A stretch of 64,000 nucleotides of DNA from Aequitasia blattaphilus. GTDB lineage: Bacteria > Bacillota > Clostridia > Lachnospirales > Lachnospiraceae. The stretch spans positions 1 to 64,000 of the forward strand of contig NZ_JAMXOD010000011.1 in the NCBI RefSeq assembly GCF_024721305.1, written 5' to 3'. The notes beneath the pieces are model-generated. The model saw only the letters and a list, made by a program, of their open reading frames with translations, made no database searches and was not told the DNA's origin. Position 1 is the stretch's first letter; the number at the start of each line of letters is the position of its first letter. Shown here in pieces: positions 22,422 to 29,935 of this stretch. A program made the translations under genes and the position numbers.

Positions 22422-24302
22422 ATGGATAAAATTGTATGGCTGGATGACCCGGAAATTTATCGTGTCAATCAAATTGATTCTCATAGTGATCATGTGTGCT
22501 ATGCTTCAAAAGAAGAAAGTGAGAGAGGAAAGAGTACATTAAGCCAATCTCTTAACGGGTCATGGTCATTTTTATACTCGGTCAATGCTAAAGTACGGCC
22601 AAAAGAATTCTACAAAGCTGATTTTGACAGTACAGGGTTTGATGAAATTCAAGTTCCAAAGCACATTGAGCTTGCAGGATACGATAGAGTGCATTATATA
22701 AATACTATGTATCCCTGGGAAGGAAGTGAATATAGGAGACCGCCCTATACTCTTGGAAAAGATACGTTGGAGAAGGGAATGTTTAGTGAAGCGGAATATA
22801 ACCCTGTTGGCTCCTACATAAAGAAATTTGATTTGGATCAGGGTATGATTGGAAAAGACATATCAATAAAATTCCATGGTGTGGAACAAGCTTTCTATGT
22901 ATGGCTTAATGGGGTTTTTATTGGCTATGGAGAGGACAGCTTTACACCGTCAGAATTTGATCTTTCACCTGAAATCCAGGAAAAAGAGAATATACTGTGT
23001 GTAGAGGTGCATAAAAGAAGTACAGCAGCCTTTTTGGAAGATCAGGATTTCTTTCGATTCTTTGGTATCTTTAGAGATGTAGAGCTTGTTGCCAGGCCGA
23101 AGCTTCATGTCGAGGACTTATGGATACAACCGGTTTTGACGAATTTGGAATCTGGAAGAATAAACTTAAGGGTACAAACAAAATCAAAGGTAAATAAAGG
23201 AAAAATTTGCTGCATCATTAAGAATCAGGACAACCATATCATTCACGAAAGTGAGGAAGTATTTTCAGAGACCATTCAATTTTCTGAAGTTATTGTAAGC
23301 AACCCGAACCTGTGGGATAATACAAACCCCTATCTTTATTGGTTAGAGTTGCTTGTGAAGACAGACACAGAAGAGGTAGTAGAATATATAAAGTATCCAT
23401 TTGGATTTCGGAAAATAGAGATTCATCAAGGTGTTATGCAGCTGAATGGAAAGCGGCTTGTGATAAATGGAGTGAATCGCCATGAGTGGAGTCCCTATAA
23501 CGGGCGTGTTATAGGAGAAGCAGAAAACAGAGGGGATATTGAAACTTGTAAAAAAAATCATATCAATTCCGTGCGTACCTCTCATTATCCATTCCAAATT
23601 CCATGGTATTATCTATGCGATCAAAATGGGATTTACGTAATGGCAGAAACGAATATGGAAAGCCATGGCTCCTGGCAGAAAATGGATCAGATTGAACCTT
23701 CCTATAATGTGCCAGGGGATATACCACAGTGGCGAGGTGCAGTATTAGATCGTGCAAGAACACAGTATTACCTTCTGCGAAACCATACCAGTATTTTATT
23801 CTGGTCTCTGGGAAACGAATCTTATGCGGGTGAAAACATTCGTTTGATGCATGAGTTTTACAAAAATGCAGATGAGGAACGGCTGGTTCATTATGAAGGA
23901 AATTTTCATAATCCAGATTATGAGGAGAGCATTTCAGATATTAAAAGTAGAATGTATGCTAAGCCATTGGAAATCAAAGAGTATTTAGATAATGAGCCAA
24001 AGAAGCCATTTATTCTTTGTGAGTATATGCATAATATGGGAAACTCATTAGGGGGGATGAAAGCATATATGGAGTTGCTGGATCGGTATGAAATGTATCA
24101 AGGCGGGTACATTTGGGATTTTATTGATCAGGCACTTTATGTCTATGATGAAATATCAAAGAAGCAAGTACTTCGATATGGAGGAGACTTTGGTGACCGA
24201 CCTTCTGATTATGAATTCTCTGGGAATGGTATTCTGTTTGCCAATCGGGAGGAAAAGCCAGCGATGCAGGAAGTGAGGTACTATTATGGAAAATATAAAT
24301 AA
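22422..24302 (+). CDS. lacL: Beta-galactosidase large subunit LacL (GH2)
   Basis: Large chain of a heterodimeric GH2 beta-galactosidase, hydrolysing lactose to glucose and galactose in the cytoplasm. 626 residues matches LacL of lactobacilli. The sugar-binding domain and immunoglobulin-like domain precede the TIM barrel, which carries the acid/base glutamate in SLGNES (residue 466) and the nucleophile in LCEYMHNMGNS (residue 534). The chain ends after KPAMQEVRYYYGKYK, where one-chain LacZ enzymes continue into the domain carried here by LacM. The 17-nt overlap with lacM is the classical lacLM arrangement, so this is not a frameshifted lacZ. RBS AAGGAGG precedes the ATG. Confidence 0.9.
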   Translation: MDKIVWLDDPEIYRVNQIDSHSDHVCYASKEESERGKSTLSQSLNGSWSFLYSVNAKVRPKEFYKADFDSTGFDEIQVPKHIELAGYDRVHYINTMYPWEGSEYRRPPYTLGKDTLEKGMFSEAEYNPVGSYIKKFDLDQGMIGKDISIKFHGVEQAFYVWLNGVFIGYGEDSFTPSEFDLSPEIQEKENILCVEVHKRSTAAFLEDQDFFRFFGIFRDVELVARPKLHVEDLWIQPVLTNLESGRINLRVQTKSKVNKGKICCIIKNQDNHIIHESEEVFSETIQFSEVIVSNPNLWDNTNPYLYWLELLVKTDTEEVVEYIKYPFGFRKIEIHQGVMQLNGKRLVINGVNRHEWSPYNGRVIGEAENRGDIETCKKNHINSVRTSHYPFQIPWYYLCDQNGIYVMAETNMESHGSWQKMDQIEPSYNVPGDIPQWRGAVLDRARTQYYLLRNHTSILFWSLGNESYAGENIRLMHEFYKNADEERLVHYEGNFHNPDYEESISDIKSRMYAKPLEIKEYLDNEPKKPFILCEYMHNMGNSLGGMKAYMELLDRYEMYQGGYIWDFIDQALYVYDEISKKQVLRYGGDFGDRPSDYEFSGNGILFANREEKPAMQEVRYYYGKYK

Positions 24303-25203
24303 AGAGCTAAGTATTATATATGGAGATGTTACCCTGGGATTAAAGGGGGATGACTTTCACTATATTTTTTCTTATGCAAAAGGTGGTCTGGAGTCTTTGA
24401 AAAAGCAGGGACAGGAGTGGCTGTATCGTATCCCCATGCCCACCTTTTGGAGAGCAACAACTGACAATGACAGAGGAAATGGATTCTCCTATGCCTCAGC
24501 AATGTGGATGGGAGCAGACATGTTCTTACGTTGTATCAGCAAATATGTAAAAATCAATGGGGAAGAAATACCTTTTCCGGCAGCGCCTGAGAATAATAAA
24601 TATAGCAATAATGAGAATGCAAAAGAGGTAGAGATTACATTTATCTATGAGACAAGTACCGTACCAAAAACAAGTGTTAGCGTAAGTTACACGGTGTTAC
24701 CATCAGGGGAAATAAAGATACATATGCATTATAAAGGGAAAGATAATCTTCCAGGTTTACCCGTTTTAGGAATGAGATTTGTGTTGATGGAAAAAGCCGA
24801 TGGATATAAATATGAGGGACTTTCAGGTGAAACCTATCCGGATCGAATGGAGGGAGGAGCATATGGAGTCCATCAGGTAGAAGGACTTCCAGTCACTCCG
24901 TATTTGGTACCTCAGGAGTGTGGCATGCATATGAAAACAAGATGGGCGGAAGTGGAAAGAAACAATCAGAGCATTAAATTTAGAGGCAAAGACGAATTTG
25001 CATTTTCATGTTTGCCTTATACATCTCAGGAATTAGAAAATGCAACCCATATGGAAGAGCTGCCTTTGCCCAGAAGAACCGTAATGGTGATTGCCAATAA
25101 AGTACGTGGAGTTGGAGGGATTGATAGTTGGGGATCAAAGCCAGGAAAAGATTATGAAATCCCGGGGGATCAGGACTATACTCTCCAGTTCAGTGTAAAA
25201 TAA
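24286..25203 (+). CDS. lacM: Beta-galactosidase small subunit LacM
   Basis: 305-residue small chain corresponding to the C-terminal domain of LacZ. It has the IPMPTFWRATTDNDRGNGF stretch that completes the active site in GH2 beta-galactosidases, and near the C-terminus GVGGIDSWGSKPGKDY, the equivalent of GIGGDDSWSP in LacZ. Neither chain alone is expected to be active. The ATG at 24286 lies 17 nt inside lacL, so translation is coupled. No obvious terminator follows; the next 900 nt are non-coding. Confidence 0.9.
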   Translation: MENINKELSIIYGDVTLGLKGDDFHYIFSYAKGGLESLKKQGQEWLYRIPMPTFWRATTDNDRGNGFSYASAMWMGADMFLRCISKYVKINGEEIPFPAAPENNKYSNNENAKEVEITFIYETSTVPKTSVSVSYTVLPSGEIKIHMHYKGKDNLPGLPVLGMRFVLMEKADGYKYEGLSGETYPDRMEGGAYGVHQVEGLPVTPYLVPQECGMHMKTRWAEVERNNQSIKFRGKDEFAFSCLPYTSQELENATHMEELPLPRRTVMVIANKVRGVGGIDSWGSKPGKDYEIPGDQDYTLQFSVK

Positions 25204-25277
25204 AGAGGGGAATTGACAGACTATTTATACAAATCGCAACAATAGTAAAATAACAAATAAAAAATAAATAAATAGTA

Positions 25278-25306
25278 TTGACAAATAGAAAAGCCAATGG
25301 TATTAT
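25278..25306 (+). promoter_or_regulatory. Orphan sigma-A promoter in the decayed region
   Basis: TTGACA (25278-25283), 17-nt spacer, TATTAT (25301-25306). Near-consensus, but it leads only into decayed sequence. A GAAAAGGAGGC RBS-like site follows at about 25377-25387. Confidence 0.6.
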
Positions 25307-26000
25307 ATACTCAACCTACAGGAAATCCAATAAAAAAAGCCTGACGAGAAAGGGTTTTCGGATTTCAAATCGGAACGAAAAGGAGGCTTGATCCATTGGA
25401 CAATGTAGAGATGAAGACTCAATATGTTAGTGGTACAACAAATATTAGTTCCCGTAAATTAAGCCTTATAAAAAAGGTATAAAAAGACGGCAACAAAAAA
25501 AGTAATAAAAAATCGGAGAGATTTGTAGCCGCAGAAATGATTAAAATTTGTTGGCATATTGAAAAGAAAAATACCACCTCAAAGTTATCAGAAGATGCGT
25601 AAAGAAGCATTACCTGATATATCATGTAATATTAAATATATAAGAGTAAACGGTTTAAGAGGTAATAGCTTAGTACGGTTGTACACAAATGATAAGGGCT
25701 CTGTGTATGATTGAAACGGTTATAGGTACTTATTAACCAAAGTAATAATATATTTAAAGAGGAAGTATAATAAAGATACCATGAAAATGGACTTTGGGCG
25801 ATTCATAAGAAGAATGAAAATTAATGAATTGAAAAAACAAAAAGTCATTATATAATAAAGATAACCAATGAAAATGTAATAACAGTCTGTAAAGGCGATG
25901 TTATTGGAGAATGAGGGTTATGAAATAAAGATAATGAAAAAAGTAAAAGGGAACTAGGTCGAGGTAGACCTCCGATTATAAAGAAAGTTAGATAAAACTT

Positions 26001-26052
26001 AATAGGGAAGTGGCCATTGCAGTCAAAAGATTGTGATGGCCACTTCTCTATT
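26001..26052. terminator. Very long perfect-type hairpin, probable bidirectional terminator
   Basis: 26001-26017 (AATAGGGAAGTGGCCAT) pairs with 26036-26052 with one wobble, and the stem continues through GCAGTC/GATTGT to an AAAA loop, about 24 bp in all. TTTTC follows on the plus strand. It insulates the metNIQ promoter from upstream read-through. Confidence 0.65.
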
Positions 26053-26065
26053 TTCAAGAAAATAC

Positions 26066-26094
26066 TTGACAAATTTGTAGCGATGTATCATAGT
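26066..26094 (+). promoter_or_regulatory. Promoter of the metNIQ leader transcript
   Basis: TTGACA (26066-26071), 17-nt spacer and CATAGT (26089-26094, 4 of 6 matches). The predicted start near 26101 gives a ~27-nt leader before the small Met-rich reading frame. Confidence 0.6.
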
Positions 26095-26127
26095 TATTTC
26101 ATAACTTGTTAAAGGAGAAATGAATCG

Positions 26128-26241
26128 ATGAAATCAATAGCTTATCAGATTACAAATCAGAATATGATGATGTGTGGCTGTGGAATCATGATGATGATGA
26201 ACACAGTTTCTTTTCCACGCATTAACATATCTGCAAAGTAA
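26128..26241 (+). CDS. 37-residue Met/Cys-rich leader peptide of the metNIQ operon
   Basis: A 37-codon frame with its own RBS (AAAGGAGA, 10 nt upstream) begins MKSIAYQITNQ and carries NMMMCGCGIMMMMN in the middle: seven internal methionine codons (26164-26172 and 26188-26199) and two cysteine codons. It lies between the promoter and an intrinsic terminator in front of the methionine transporter genes, the layout of a ribosome-mediated attenuator. GTGTGG and CTGTG (26172-26182) can pair with CACAG and CCACGC (26202-26220) over the Met codons. The stop at 26239-26241 lies between the two halves of the putative antiterminator. The peptide itself probably has no function beyond measuring charged Met-tRNA (and perhaps Cys-tRNA). 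Function is inferred; the frame and RNA elements are visible. Confidence 0.8.
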   Translation: MKSIAYQITNQNMMMCGCGIMMMMNTVSFPRINISAK

Positions 26242-26287
26242 ATTGATTTCTTAAGTTTTGTTTTGATTATAAATCAATGGGCGGATA
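26228..26287 (+). promoter_or_regulatory. Putative antiterminator of metNIQ
   Basis: TATCTGC (26228-26234) can pair with GCGGATA (26281-26287), and just inside it ATTGATTT (26242-26249) pairs perfectly with AAATCAAT (26271-26278). The first helix uses the same bases as the 5' arm of the terminator, so the two structures exclude each other. A ribosome at the leader stop codon would cover 26228-26249 and block it; one stalled on the Met codons would not. Confidence 0.6.
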
Positions 26288-26316
26288 CATACATGCGTGT
26301 GTATCCGCCTTTTATA
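26280..26316 (+). terminator. Attenuator terminator before metN
   Basis: GGCGGATACATA (26280-26291) pairs with TGTGTATCCGCC (26298-26309), a 12-bp stem with one G-U pair and a 6-nt loop, followed by TTTTATAT. It lies 36 nt before the metN ATG. Confidence 0.85.
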
Positions 26317-26348
26317 TATGGAATTAAAAAGATAAAGGAGAGTAGAGT

Positions 26349-27383
26349 ATGTCAGCGATTGAATTAAAAAAACTAACAAAAACATTTCAAACAAAAGACC
26401 ATCAAGTAGAAGCGCTAAAAGATATTAGTCTTAAGATTGAAGAGGGTGAGATCTATGGGATTATTGGAATGTCGGGAGCAGGAAAGAGTACACTGGTACG
26501 CTGTTTTAACTTTTTAGAAAGGCCGACAAAGGGGCAAGTTCTAATTGAAGGGAAGGATCTTGGGGAACTGTCAGAAAAAGAACTGAGGAGACAGAGAAGT
26601 GATATAGCAATGATTTTTCAGCATTTCAACTTATTATCACAAAAAAATGTTGTAGATAATATTTCTCTTCCTCTCATTATACAAGGAGTCAAGAAAAGTG
26701 AGGCAAAGAAAAGGGCAAAGGAGCTGCTTAAAATTGTTGAGCTGGAAGATAAGGAAAAGGCATACCCCGCTCAACTATCAGGTGGACAAAAGCAAAGAGT
26801 TGCAATTGCAAGAGCCTTAGCCAGTGATCCGAAAATTCTTCTGTGTGATGAAGCAACATCTGCATTGGATCCACGAACTACGAAATCAATTCTTGAGCTT
26901 CTAAAAGAAATTAATAAAAATCTTAATATTACAATTGTAATGATTACACATCAGATGGAAGTTGTACGGGAGATCTGCCAAAAAGTCGCAATTATGGAAG
27001 AAGGTATTGTTGTTGAGGAGGGAGGCGTCGAGGAAATCTTTGATACACCCAAAACGAAGGCAGCCAAACGTCTGATTTTAGGAGATAAAAGTAAAGATGA
27101 TGATATATTACAAGACTCAAAAGTAAAGGAATTGCTCAAAAGCGGAAAGAAAATTAGAATTGTATTTACAGAGAATTCAGCCTTTGAACCTGTTGTCAGC
27201 AATATGATTCTTAAGTTTAATACTCCCATCAATATTTTAGGAGCAGATACGAAGAATGTAGGGGGAATTGCAAAGGGTGAAATGCTTATTCAACTCACCG
27301 ATGAAACGAAAAATGAAGAAGATATCATCACATATCTAAAAGAGCGAGGATTAAAAGTAGAGGAGGTAGAAGAAGATGTTTAG
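26349..27383 (+). CDS. metN: Methionine ABC transporter ATP-binding protein
   Basis: 344-residue ATPase of the MetNIQ importer for methionine. Walker A GMSGAGKST is near residue 40, signature LSGGQKQRV near 145, Walker B ILLCDEATSALDP near 163 and the switch histidine in MITHQ. The C-terminal ~75 residues (from about 265) form the NIL domain that binds methionine and inhibits transport when internal methionine is high. RBS AAAGGAGAG precedes the ATG and metI overlaps the end by 8 nt. Expression is controlled by the leader-peptide/terminator region upstream. Confidence 0.95.
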   Translation: MSAIELKKLTKTFQTKDHQVEALKDISLKIEEGEIYGIIGMSGAGKSTLVRCFNFLERPTKGQVLIEGKDLGELSEKELRRQRSDIAMIFQHFNLLSQKNVVDNISLPLIIQGVKKSEAKKRAKELLKIVELEDKEKAYPAQLSGGQKQRVAIARALASDPKILLCDEATSALDPRTTKSILELLKEINKNLNITIVMITHQMEVVREICQKVAIMEEGIVVEEGGVEEIFDTPKTKAAKRLILGDKSKDDDILQDSKVKELLKSGKKIRIVFTENSAFEPVVSNMILKFNTPINILGADTKNVGGIAKGEMLIQLTDETKNEEDIITYLKERGLKVEEVEEDV

Positions 27384-28035
27384 TAGTGAAGTTATACAGA
27401 TGCTTATAACAGGAGTTGGCGAAACACTTTATATGACATTGGTTTCAACATTATTGGGATACATTATTGGATTACCTCTGGGAGTGCTATTAGCAGTATC
27501 AGACAGAGAAGGTATTAGGCCGAACGGGATACTGTATAAAGCATTGGATTTTATATCGAATATCATCCGAAGCATACCATTTTTGATTTTGTTAATCCTG
27601 GTGATCCCATTTACCCGGATGCTGGTAGGAAAAAGCTATGGTTCAACAGCGACGATAGTACCTCTTGTGATAGCGGCAGCACCTTTTATAGCCAGAATGG
27701 TAGAAGCTTCTATCAACGAAGTGGATAAAGGGGTTATTGAAGCAGCGAAATCTATGGGAGCTTCAAACTGGATTATTATAACCAAGGTATTATTGGTAGA
27801 GGCAAGAACATCCCTGATTTCAGGGGCAACAATTGCAACGGGAACCATCTTAGGCTATTCAGCTATGGCAGGTTCTGTAGGCGGCGGAGGCTTAGGAGCA
27901 ATAGCAATTCGTTATGGATATAACCGCTATGAAACAGATATTATGCTGGTAACCGTTATTTTATTAATTGTTTTAGTTCAAGTGTTCCAAACGGTTGGAA
28001 TGAAAACATCCACACGTTTAGATAGAAGAAAATAA
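27376..28035 (+). CDS. metI: Methionine ABC transporter permease
   Basis: 219-residue membrane subunit with five or six hydrophobic segments. NIIRSIPFLILLILVIPFTR and the coupling loop EAAKSMGASNWIIITKVLLVEA are typical of MetI. It begins within the end of metN and is followed after 16 nt by metQ. Confidence 0.95.
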   Translation: MFSSEVIQMLITGVGETLYMTLVSTLLGYIIGLPLGVLLAVSDREGIRPNGILYKALDFISNIIRSIPFLILLILVIPFTRMLVGKSYGSTATIVPLVIAAAPFIARMVEASINEVDKGVIEAAKSMGASNWIIITKVLLVEARTSLISGATIATGTILGYSAMAGSVGGGGLGAIAIRYGYNRYETDIMLVTVILLIVLVQVFQTVGMKTSTRLDRRK

Positions 28036-28051: not shown

Positions 28052-28897
28052 ATGAAAAAGAGAATTTTAGCAAGTTTATTAGCAGGAATATTGGTGATTG
28101 GACTTATGGTTGGATGCAGCAAAAAGGCAGAAACAGCGGATACAGATGAAGGTTCCAGCTCCGGTACAGAGACATTGACAATTGCAGCATCTGCAACGCC
28201 TCATGGGGAAATATTAGAAGAGGCAAAGAAAATCTTAAAAGAGGACGGAATTAATCTTGAGATTGAAATTTTTGATGATTACGTTCTCCCCAATGAGGTC
28301 GTGGAAAGCGAAGAGCTGGATGCAAATTACTTTCAACATGCGCCGTATCTGGATAGCTTTAATGAAGAAAAAGGAACTCATTTGGTAGATGCAGGCCAGA
28401 TTCATTATGAGCCCTTTGGTATTTATCCGGGAACAAAAAATAATTTAGATGATTTAGAGGATGGGGACAGTATCGCAGTGCCAAATGATACAACCAATGA
28501 AGCAAGAGCACTTCTTTTATTAGAAGATAATGGAATTATTACATTAAAAGAAGGAGCAGGCTTAACTGCAACGGTAAATGATATTGATAAAAATCCGAAA
28601 AACATTAAGATTGAAGAGCTAGAGGCTGCTCAAATCCCAAGAGTAAAAGAGGAAGTGGCATTTGTAGTATTAAATGGAAACTATGCGCTAGAAGCAGGGT
28701 TCTCCGTTTCAAAGGACGCAATTGCATATGAAGAATCGGATTCTGAGGCTGCAAAAACTTATGTAAATATTATTGCAGTCAAAGAAGGAAATGAAGACGA
28801 AGCAAAGATTAAAAAACTGGTTGAGGTATTAAAGTCTGATGATATAAAGTCTTTCATTGAAACGAAGTATGATGGTGCTGTAGTGCCATTTGAATAG
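28052..28897 (+). CDS. metQ: Methionine-binding lipoprotein
   Basis: 281-residue NlpA/MetQ family protein. The signal peptide KKRILASLLAGILVIG ends in a lipobox (LMVGC), so it is anchored outside the membrane. ATPHGEILEEAKKILKEDG and LDANYFQHAPYLDSF are family signatures, and IHYEPFGIYPG follows. It receives methionine (either isomer in relatives) and passes it to MetI. RBS AAGAAGGAGGAG; terminator follows at 28908. Confidence 0.95.
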   Translation: MKKRILASLLAGILVIGLMVGCSKKAETADTDEGSSSGTETLTIAASATPHGEILEEAKKILKEDGINLEIEIFDDYVLPNEVVESEELDANYFQHAPYLDSFNEEKGTHLVDAGQIHYEPFGIYPGTKNNLDDLEDGDSIAVPNDTTNEARALLLLEDNGIITLKEGAGLTATVNDIDKNPKNIKIEELEAAQIPRVKEEVAFVVLNGNYALEAGFSVSKDAIAYEESDSEAAKTYVNIIAVKEGNEDEAKIKKLVEVLKSDDIKSFIETKYDGAVVPFE

Positions 28898-29341: not shown

Positions 29342-29833
29342 TTAAGCTGTTTTTTTGAAAAGTACATTTTGATATTTTCTGAGTGCAAAAAATAGAATCA
29401 TTCCAAGTACTCCACAAGAGAGAACCTCTCCAATTCCCACACTTAACATAAGCAATGGAATCGGTAGATTGATACCGTATCCAAAGCGTAAAATCATAGG
29501 AACAATGATGGTATTAGAAATAATTGGCGGCAGGGGAGCAAGATAAGGATTCTTTTTACTAAAGTAGTAAGTAAAAACAGCTCCAATTAAGGTCGCAACG
29601 CTACCAAAAACAATATCCGGCAGCATGGCTCCACCAGTAATATTTCCAATAAGACATCCCACAAAAAGGCCAGGGATGGCAGCTGGAGTAAAAGCTGGAA
29701 GTATGGTAAGTGCCTCTGCTATTCGTACTTGAACCTCTCCAAAGGAAATGGGAGCAAATACAAAAGTTAAGACAACATAAATAGCTGCAATCATCGCAGC
29801 CTGCACTAAAAATAAAGTACTTTTGTTTTTCAT
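29342..29833 (-). CDS. queT: QueT-family queuosine-precursor ECF transporter subunit
   Basis: 163-residue integral membrane S-component with about five hydrophobic helices; hallmark stretches are YVVLTFVFAPISFGEVQVRIAE and NITGGAMLPDIVFGS. It probably imports preQ1, preQ0 or queuine together with an Ecf energising module encoded elsewhere. The leader holds a preQ1-I riboswitch whose 3' end overlaps the RBS, which supports the assigned substrate. VOC gene follows in the same transcript. Confidence 0.93.
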   Translation of the reverse strand: MKNKSTLFLVQAAMIAAIYVVLTFVFAPISFGEVQVRIAEALTILPAFTPAAIPGLFVGCLIGNITGGAMLPDIVFGSVATLIGAVFTYYFSKKNPYLAPLPPIISNTIIVPMILRFGYGINLPIPLLMLSVGIGEVLSCGVLGMILFFALRKYQNVLFKKTA

Positions 29834-29846
29834 AATAGTTCATTCT

Positions 29847-29887
29847 CCTTAGTTTTGTTTTACGTGAGGATGGTTACGAACTCACGG
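29847..29887 (-). promoter_or_regulatory. PreQ1-I riboswitch controlling queT translation
   Basis: On the minus strand a 6-bp P1 stem (29886-29881 with 29868-29863, CGTGAG/CTCACG) encloses a 12-nt loop with GUAACC, followed by the A-rich tail UAAAACAAAACUAAGG. This closely follows the preQ1-I aptamer of Thermoanaerobacter (loop GUAACC, tail AACAAAACAAGG). The final AAGG is the start of the queT Shine-Dalgarno (AAGGAG), so ligand binding should hide the RBS. Confidence 0.88.
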
Positions 29888-29935
29888 TATTATTTTGGGC
29901 TACACCTGGTAAATATAAGGTGTGTAGCAACTGGT

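Follow-up and report, generated by a model that had tools for sequence, protein, structure and literature searches.

In the trp, his, leu, thr, ilv, and phe attenuators, a leader open reading frame (ORF) rich in cognate codons is followed by a terminator before the first gene, and the position of the ribosome frees an antiterminator strand. Methionine genes of Firmicutes are controlled by the SAM-I (S-box) riboswitch and the Met T-box, often by termination. The available part of one source names leader-peptide attenuators for His, Leu, Thr, Trp, Ile/Val, and Phe only (PMC3766115), and methionine is absent among the amino acids sensed by such attenuators in the literature searched. Cysteine has been connected with leader peptides in several groups: according to the accessible portions of the sources, uORFC-8-2 before cysS in Rhodobacterales encodes a Cys leader peptide with a terminator-like 3′ end (PMC8632094), other attenuator elements are reported missing from leaders of cys operons in Actinobacteria (PMC1262725), and polycysteine ORFs occur in mycobacteria (Canestrari 2020, as cited). 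In bacilli, His leader peptides precede hisS and hisZ (PMC2965389, available text).

The locus considered here shares with the trp, his, leu, thr, ilv, and phe systems a cognate-rich leader ORF, a terminator, and, as a candidate, an alternative antiterminator, and it differs, as far as the available text of the sources goes, in its codon (Met, with Cys), its transporter target, and its Lachnospiraceae host. As with the cysteine leader peptides, a short ORF preceding sulfur genes is proposed to sense Cys codons; those leaders, as described in the accessible text, read Cys only and belong to other phyla and other genes. Like the hisS and hisZ leaders of bacilli, as partly available, it would be a Gram-positive leader-peptide attenuator used in place of a T-box, for a different amino acid and a different gene. 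No Met-codon leader before metNIQ was found in the literature searched, a search whose reach mostly excluded subscription journals.

The window is a 64,000-nt stretch of Aequitasia blattaphilus DNA (contig NZ_JAMXOD010000011.1, positions 1 to 64,000), and all features of the locus lie on its plus strand. A σ70-type promoter (TTGACA-17-CATAGT, a 10/12 match) occupies positions 26066–26094 and is followed by the ribosome-binding site AAAGGAG (26111–26117) and by a leader ORF of 37 codons, MKSIAYQITNQNMMMCGCGIMMMMNTVSFPRINISAK, with the stop codon TAA (26128–26241); the ORF is recognized from its sequence and from related leaders. Three ATG codons (26164–26172), the residues Cys-Gly-Cys-Gly-Ile, and four further ATG codons (26188–26199) form a Met/Cys block at 26164–26199, which we propose as the stall site from its sequence and from the in-frame Met codons found across leaders. 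Altogether, the leader contains seven internal Met and two Cys residues. Promoter, ribosome-binding site, and Met-run ORF had been noted in the preliminary description, and all are present, placing a short frame with a ribosome-binding site between the promoter and the first gene. The 150 nt before metN are identical in a genome of the same genus (G077, locus L152) and in Ohessyouella blattaphilus PAL227 (Lachnospiraceae; L032).

Downstream lie metN (26349–27383), encoding a methionine-type ABC transporter adenosine triphosphatase, metI (27376–28035), encoding a methionine ABC transporter permease, and metQ (28052–28897), encoding a binding lipoprotein of the MetQ/NlpA family. The permease exceeds the cut-off of its NCBIfam model (NF008049, 222.4 bits versus 212), whereas MetN (best match TIGR02314, 386.5 bits versus 499.7) and MetQ (PRK11063, 186.9 bits versus 374) fall under the curated cut-offs. 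Solved relatives of MetQ include chains named as methionine-binding MetQ (4got and 4yah), but the nearest one, 4ib2, carries no name beyond putative lipoprotein. Since two of the three proteins score below the cut-offs, methionine is the likely rather than the certain substrate of the transporter.

Upstream regions for comparison were gathered via MetN. Eighty loci came from named records, mostly labelled Lachnospiraceae or its genera. MetN matched in 154 of 398 genomes of the family, which supplied 30 loci and 120 fetched stretches, four stretches serving other checks; among the MetN matches listed, genomes G037, G089, G274, and G377 were left out of the locus set. Of the 231 loci, 227 yielded metN, and the remaining four were stretches for pattern checks. 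Removal of 12 duplicates left 215 distinct upstream regions, nearly all from Lachnospiraceae. In four of the metN loci, the upstream region was shorter than 250 nt. The score of a region was the number of Met and Cys residues in any 16 residues of its best ORF preceded by a ribosome-binding site. The ORF caller picks the longest start with such a site, so that in a few leaders the real start may be a Met that was counted as internal.

The scores were distributed in two humps, with 171 regions at 0 to 4, 4 regions at 5 to 7, and 40 regions at 8 to 12. On the reverse strand, all 215 regions scored 0 to 5. A short ORF with at least eight Met and Cys per 16 residues is therefore found in 40 of 215 upstream regions versus none of 215 controls, which makes chance an unlikely source of the Met-rich ORF, and a chance origin was rejected. 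The Met codons singled out in the preliminary description are, by this comparison, strongly conserved in homologous leaders. A promoter match of at least 10/12 was present within 110 nt 5′ of the leader in 31 of 37 cases, the mean best score being 10.19 compared to 8.13 in shuffles. In the family sample of 143 distinct loci, 35 scored at least 8, 4 scored 5 to 7, and 104 scored below 5; that most of these metN genes have no clear leader counts against the attenuator. The 35 positive loci span 30 genera, as counted from genus labels, and include leaders such as MNQLKAMQMNMYMMNGMMMCRMSMCVKNRK, MKTTFHQNMNQNMMMTGCATMCMMCMMDMAY, and MNTFKTQKTNVEMMMMRSCGTMMMYTVSFARIRYSAS. When presence of a leader was mapped onto a MetN tree (82 of 143 loci with enough protein), 11 changes were needed compared to 19.6 in shuffles, indicating that leaders are clustered, with several gains or losses.

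The composition of the 40 leaders points to the Met codons themselves. With start codons excluded, 335 ATG triplets occupied the leader reading frame, versus 22 and 11 (33 in total) in the two other frames. Met makes up 23.1% and Cys 10.3% of leader residues, whereas in the remaining short ORFs of these regions each accounts for 3.6%, so that enrichment in the cognate codons is kept in relatives. No leader has fewer than four Met downstream of its called start (median 8), and each contains at least one Cys (median 4). The TGY triplets were distributed over the frames as 150, 144, and 52, and the Cys frame count is not telling; TGY is nearly as common in the second frame, in part since any ATG with a C or T after it also contains TGY. 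Outside Met and Cys, the sequences wander between leader groups. The third-position excess between related leaders is slight (1038/922/838), which counts against the attenuator; as a test for coding, codon position is only weakly positive, and the in-frame ATG count is the stronger test. Since the leader ORFs otherwise diverge, codons rather than the peptide seem to be selected, and the pattern looks like what selection on Met codons would produce.

Known RNA elements were sought as regulators of the leader. The window contains no Rfam family at gathering score. Around the leader, four matches appeared at E ≤ 1, all far below their gathering scores, the best being an L20 leader with 22.9 bits versus 58.7. 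Neither the SAM riboswitch (RF00162) nor the T-box (RF00230) was found at Rfam gathering score in 60 metN loci (57 distinct), among them 27 of the 40 leader loci; the other matches in these scans were a TwoAYGGAY RNA in L033, which has no leader, and a tRNA in L242. A simple search of the 215 upstream regions with riboswitch and T-box motifs returned the T-box motif once, in a locus without a leader (L275). The host genome does contain one SAM-I match, located away from metN and followed by an ORF that we recognized by eye and take to be metK, and twelve T-box matches, eight of them over the cut-off and none at metN. The window metN leader thus differs from loci under SAM-I or Met T-box control in matching neither element, as the preliminary description had stated, and an Rfam element was rejected as its regulator.

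Several other features of the window were observed. A preQ1 riboswitch match on the minus strand (29843–29891; 33.7 bits, below the gathering score of 39; E 2.9e-5) lies directly before the QueT transporter gene queT (29342–29833, minus strand). A beta-galactosidase is encoded by two overlapping ORFs, one with GH2 domains (22422–24302) and the other with Bgal_small_N (24286–25203), an arrangement that we take to resemble LacL/LacM. The ~860 nt between the beta-galactosidase genes and the leader promoter (25204–26065) have no listed ORF over 75 codons and hold a TTGACA-17-TATTAT promoter-like sequence at 25278 and a strong 20-pair hairpin with a T-tail at 26005–26048; this region may possibly produce an unannotated transcript.

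An intrinsic terminator hairpin followed by TTTATATA is located at 26279–26310 (14 bp, −23.6 kcal/mol, z of −6.80), and none of 200 shuffles was as good. The hairpin reported earlier is thus real, but its distance from the metN start at 26349 is 38 nt, not 36 nt. By the detector, 38 of 40 leaders have a terminator between the stop codon and metN; in L065 and L247, where it detected none, hairpins can be made out by eye. Within the 150 nt preceding metN, a terminator is present in 32 of 40 regions with a leader versus 34 of 171 without. Among the 17 alignable leaders, 96.3% of terminator cells are paired, 24 cells have double changes, and double changes affect 7 of 13 pairs, values that none of 500 shuffles reached.

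The leader RNA can also form a competing structure. The two alternative helices proposed earlier are exact: TATCTGC inside the leader ORF (26228–26234) pairs over 7 bp with the terminator 5′ arm GCGGATA (26281–26287), which is common to both structures, and ATTGATTT, directly 3′ of the stop codon (26242–26249), forms an 8-bp inner helix with AAATCAAT (26271–26278). We found a third, outer helix of 7 bp, missed in the preliminary description, in which CACGCAT within the leader ORF (26216–26222) pairs with ATGCGTG of the terminator loop region (26293–26299), that is, CACGCAU with AUGCGUG; its inner four pairs were also recovered in nascent-RNA folding. The stretch 26207–26300, which holds all three helices, folds with −21.4 kcal/mol (z of −3.09; 1 of 200 shuffles as good).

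Pairing between the leader 3′ end and the terminator 5′ arm was evaluated in 42 of 44 leaders, the 40 scoring at least 8 plus the weaker L249, L286, L170, and L225, minus L065 and L247 in which the terminator was undetected. On average, pairing was stronger than in the controls: the mean z was −1.64 against shuffles, with 17 of 42 leaders below −2, and also −1.64 against natural windows of the same loci, with 16 of 42 leaders in the top 5%; these counts are not fully independent because the loci are related. For the window locus, the values were −1.58 and −2.72, respectively. On the other side, pairing was worse than in the median natural window in 9 of 42 loci. Covariation of the antiterminator among the 17 alignable leaders is weak and also speaks against the model: two pairs have double changes, as many as in 68 of 500 shuffles, and 87.0% of cells are paired versus 85.6% (reached by 11 of 500 shuffles), falling to 29 to 49% when slid. 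The covariation is close to that of shuffles since the 5′ strand of the antiterminator hardly varies in the aligned group. The compensatory changes that had been suggested as a check are therefore clear in the terminator and weak by column in the antiterminator, though the capacity to pair recurs with different sequences.

Folding of five leaders showed how the position of a ribosome may decide between the two structures. When nascent RNA was folded up to the terminator loop with the ribosome stalled, the antiterminator formed in all five. With the ribosome at the stop codon, no antiterminator formed in four of the five, the window leader included; L246 still folded one. However, once the whole terminator was included, the minimum-energy fold was the terminator in every state of all five leaders, the stalled state too. 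The antiterminator must then win by forming first, before the 3′ arm is made. The full-length folds were counted against the attenuator and slightly lowered our confidence in the mechanism.

The geometry of most leaders fits masking of the strand by a finished ribosome. The pairing strand starts at a median of 26 nt after the last Met or Cys codon of the block (quartiles 16 and 32; n = 42), which would place it immediately beyond a ribosome stalled on the block. The window leader is among the 32 of 42 in which the strand begins upstream of or within the stop codon, and a ribosome at the stop would thus cover it at least partly. In the remaining 10 leaders, the strand lies wholly 3′ of the stop codon, beginning within 9 nt of it in 6 and farther away in 4; a terminating ribosome would not cover the strand well there, and the plain model does not fit them. 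In L238, L246, and L261, a short frame that crosses the antiterminator strand begins with an ATG overlapping the leader stop codon. Termination-reinitiation across this strand is our guess for these three. The parts of the locus, their recurrence, the in-frame Met codons, the terminator, and the capacity to pair are all computed results.

The best explanation, and in our judgment a highly probable one, is a ribosome-mediated transcription attenuator of metNIQ that reads Met-tRNA and probably also Cys-tRNA. From the parts of the locus we infer that the leader is translated, that ribosomes stall on it according to the amino acid sensed, and that termination follows or is relieved. RNA polymerase would start just after 26066–26094, and a ribosome would translate the leader. 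With Met-tRNA (probably also Cys-tRNA) well charged, the ribosome would reach the stop codon and cover the leader 3′ end with 26216–26241, and the RNA behind the polymerase would fold into the terminator at 26279–26310. Under a shortage of charged Met-tRNA or Cys-tRNA, the ribosome would stall on the MMMCGCGIMMMM block, leaving the strand 26216–26249 free to pair with 26271–26299 before the terminator 3′ arm exists; the terminator 5′ arm would be kept busy, and polymerase would read on into metNIQ. The Met attenuator originally suggested for this locus is supported by the in-frame recurrence of Met codons and by the kept terminator, and to it we add the likelihood that cysteine is also read.

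Leaders of this type were sought beyond the known metN loci. A profile built from 26 leaders (A1) gave three matches in 291 genomes of the class; outside Lachnospiraceae nothing convincing appeared, the single match there (G399, E 0.026) having no convincing context. In the 398 genomes of the family, the same profile matched 26 places in 23 genomes, of which 21 were known metN leaders. These are 21 of the 35 known family loci, and divergent leaders would therefore be missed. Of the five other places, one (L319, G283) adds a metN leader to the set, and L327 and L324, whose matches were the weakest, were dismissed. L325 (positions 73–162; G326, contig 68) is a second copy of a metN-type leader and terminator at a contig end; the second metN of this genome (contig 49) has 238 nt upstream to the contig end and no leader in them. 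The DNA pattern MMM..C..MM had many matches in the 398 family genomes. Among the matches listed, four of those away from known metN (L295, L296, L297, and L300) lie inside larger genes or have no Met-rich leader, and L133 and L134 look coding; all were rejected.

The fifth place, L326 (942–1091; G194, contig 7), bears on which amino acid is sensed. Genome G194 has a metN leader and this second, Met/Cys-rich leader, MKIQTHAWKEKMEIMCCGMCCMAVCFM..., with MEIMCCGMCCMAVCFM and MMM. It has a promoter of the TTGACA type, and a terminator separates it from the gene for a cystine-type ABC binding protein. Together with the Cys found in all 40 leaders (at least one, median 4, beside at least four Met, median 8), it lends some support to a tentative variant of the attenuator in which cysteine is the main signal or both amino acids count equally, making it a sensor of sulfur amino acids. 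We hold this variant to be somewhat doubtful, as there are 335 Met codons but 150 Cys codons, ATG occurs almost only in frame while TGY is nearly as frequent in the second frame (150 versus 144), and the window leader has seven internal Met versus two Cys. The cystine-type case is also a single one among 30 loci of that protein family, one of which has only 157 nt upstream, and its binding protein stays under the curated cut-off (212 bits to PRK11260 versus 312). The evidence seems to us evenly balanced on a broader proposal, that these leaders read the charging of both Met-tRNA and Cys-tRNA, open importers of sulfur amino acids (metNIQ in many genera and a cystine-type transporter in at least one genome) where no SAM riboswitch or T-box was found, and solve the problem of methionine shortage hitting initiation of the leader itself.

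The remaining explanations fare worse. Met- and Cys-rich peptides can bind soft metals, and the nascent peptide itself might stall the ribosome, through binding of metal, copper, or oxidant by Met and Cys or through an exit-tunnel arrest motif, with the codons mirroring peptide chemistry. uORFs stalled by other signals exist, according to the available text of PMC12121999. We consider such stalling improbable, given that Met and Cys are spaced and ordered differently from one leader to the next and that the downstream genes encode a methionine-type importer, not metal export. Less probable still is sensing of initiation rather than elongation, whereby a short supply of formyl-Met-tRNA would reduce initiations and leave the leader untranslated. 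This has been suggested for the streptococcal fthC uORF in the accessible part of PMC11109978, and methionine shortage presumably must also touch initiation, but internal Met runs would then be unneeded, yet they are the most conserved trait. Finally, a small protein gene merely lying upstream of metNIQ would account for the strong terminator and for an ORF with its own promoter and ribosome-binding site, but it is the least probable reading, since little of the peptide other than Met and Cys is shared between groups, leaders are placed before metN again and again, in 30 genera of the family sample, and the terminator 5′ arm pairs back onto the end of the ORF.

Overall, the metNIQ leader looks like a classical ribosome-mediated attenuator, and its probable specificity for Met had no counterpart among the attenuators in the literature searched. 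Methionine is unusual among sensed amino acids in that every leader also begins with it. With Met leaders from 30 genera, the way in which the supplies of elongator and initiator Met-tRNA are told apart becomes testable. The leaders also provide an entry point to methionine uptake in this family, whose members are common gut bacteria. The results suggest that, in part of Lachnospiraceae, attenuators read by ribosomes stand where one would expect SAM riboswitches or T-boxes.
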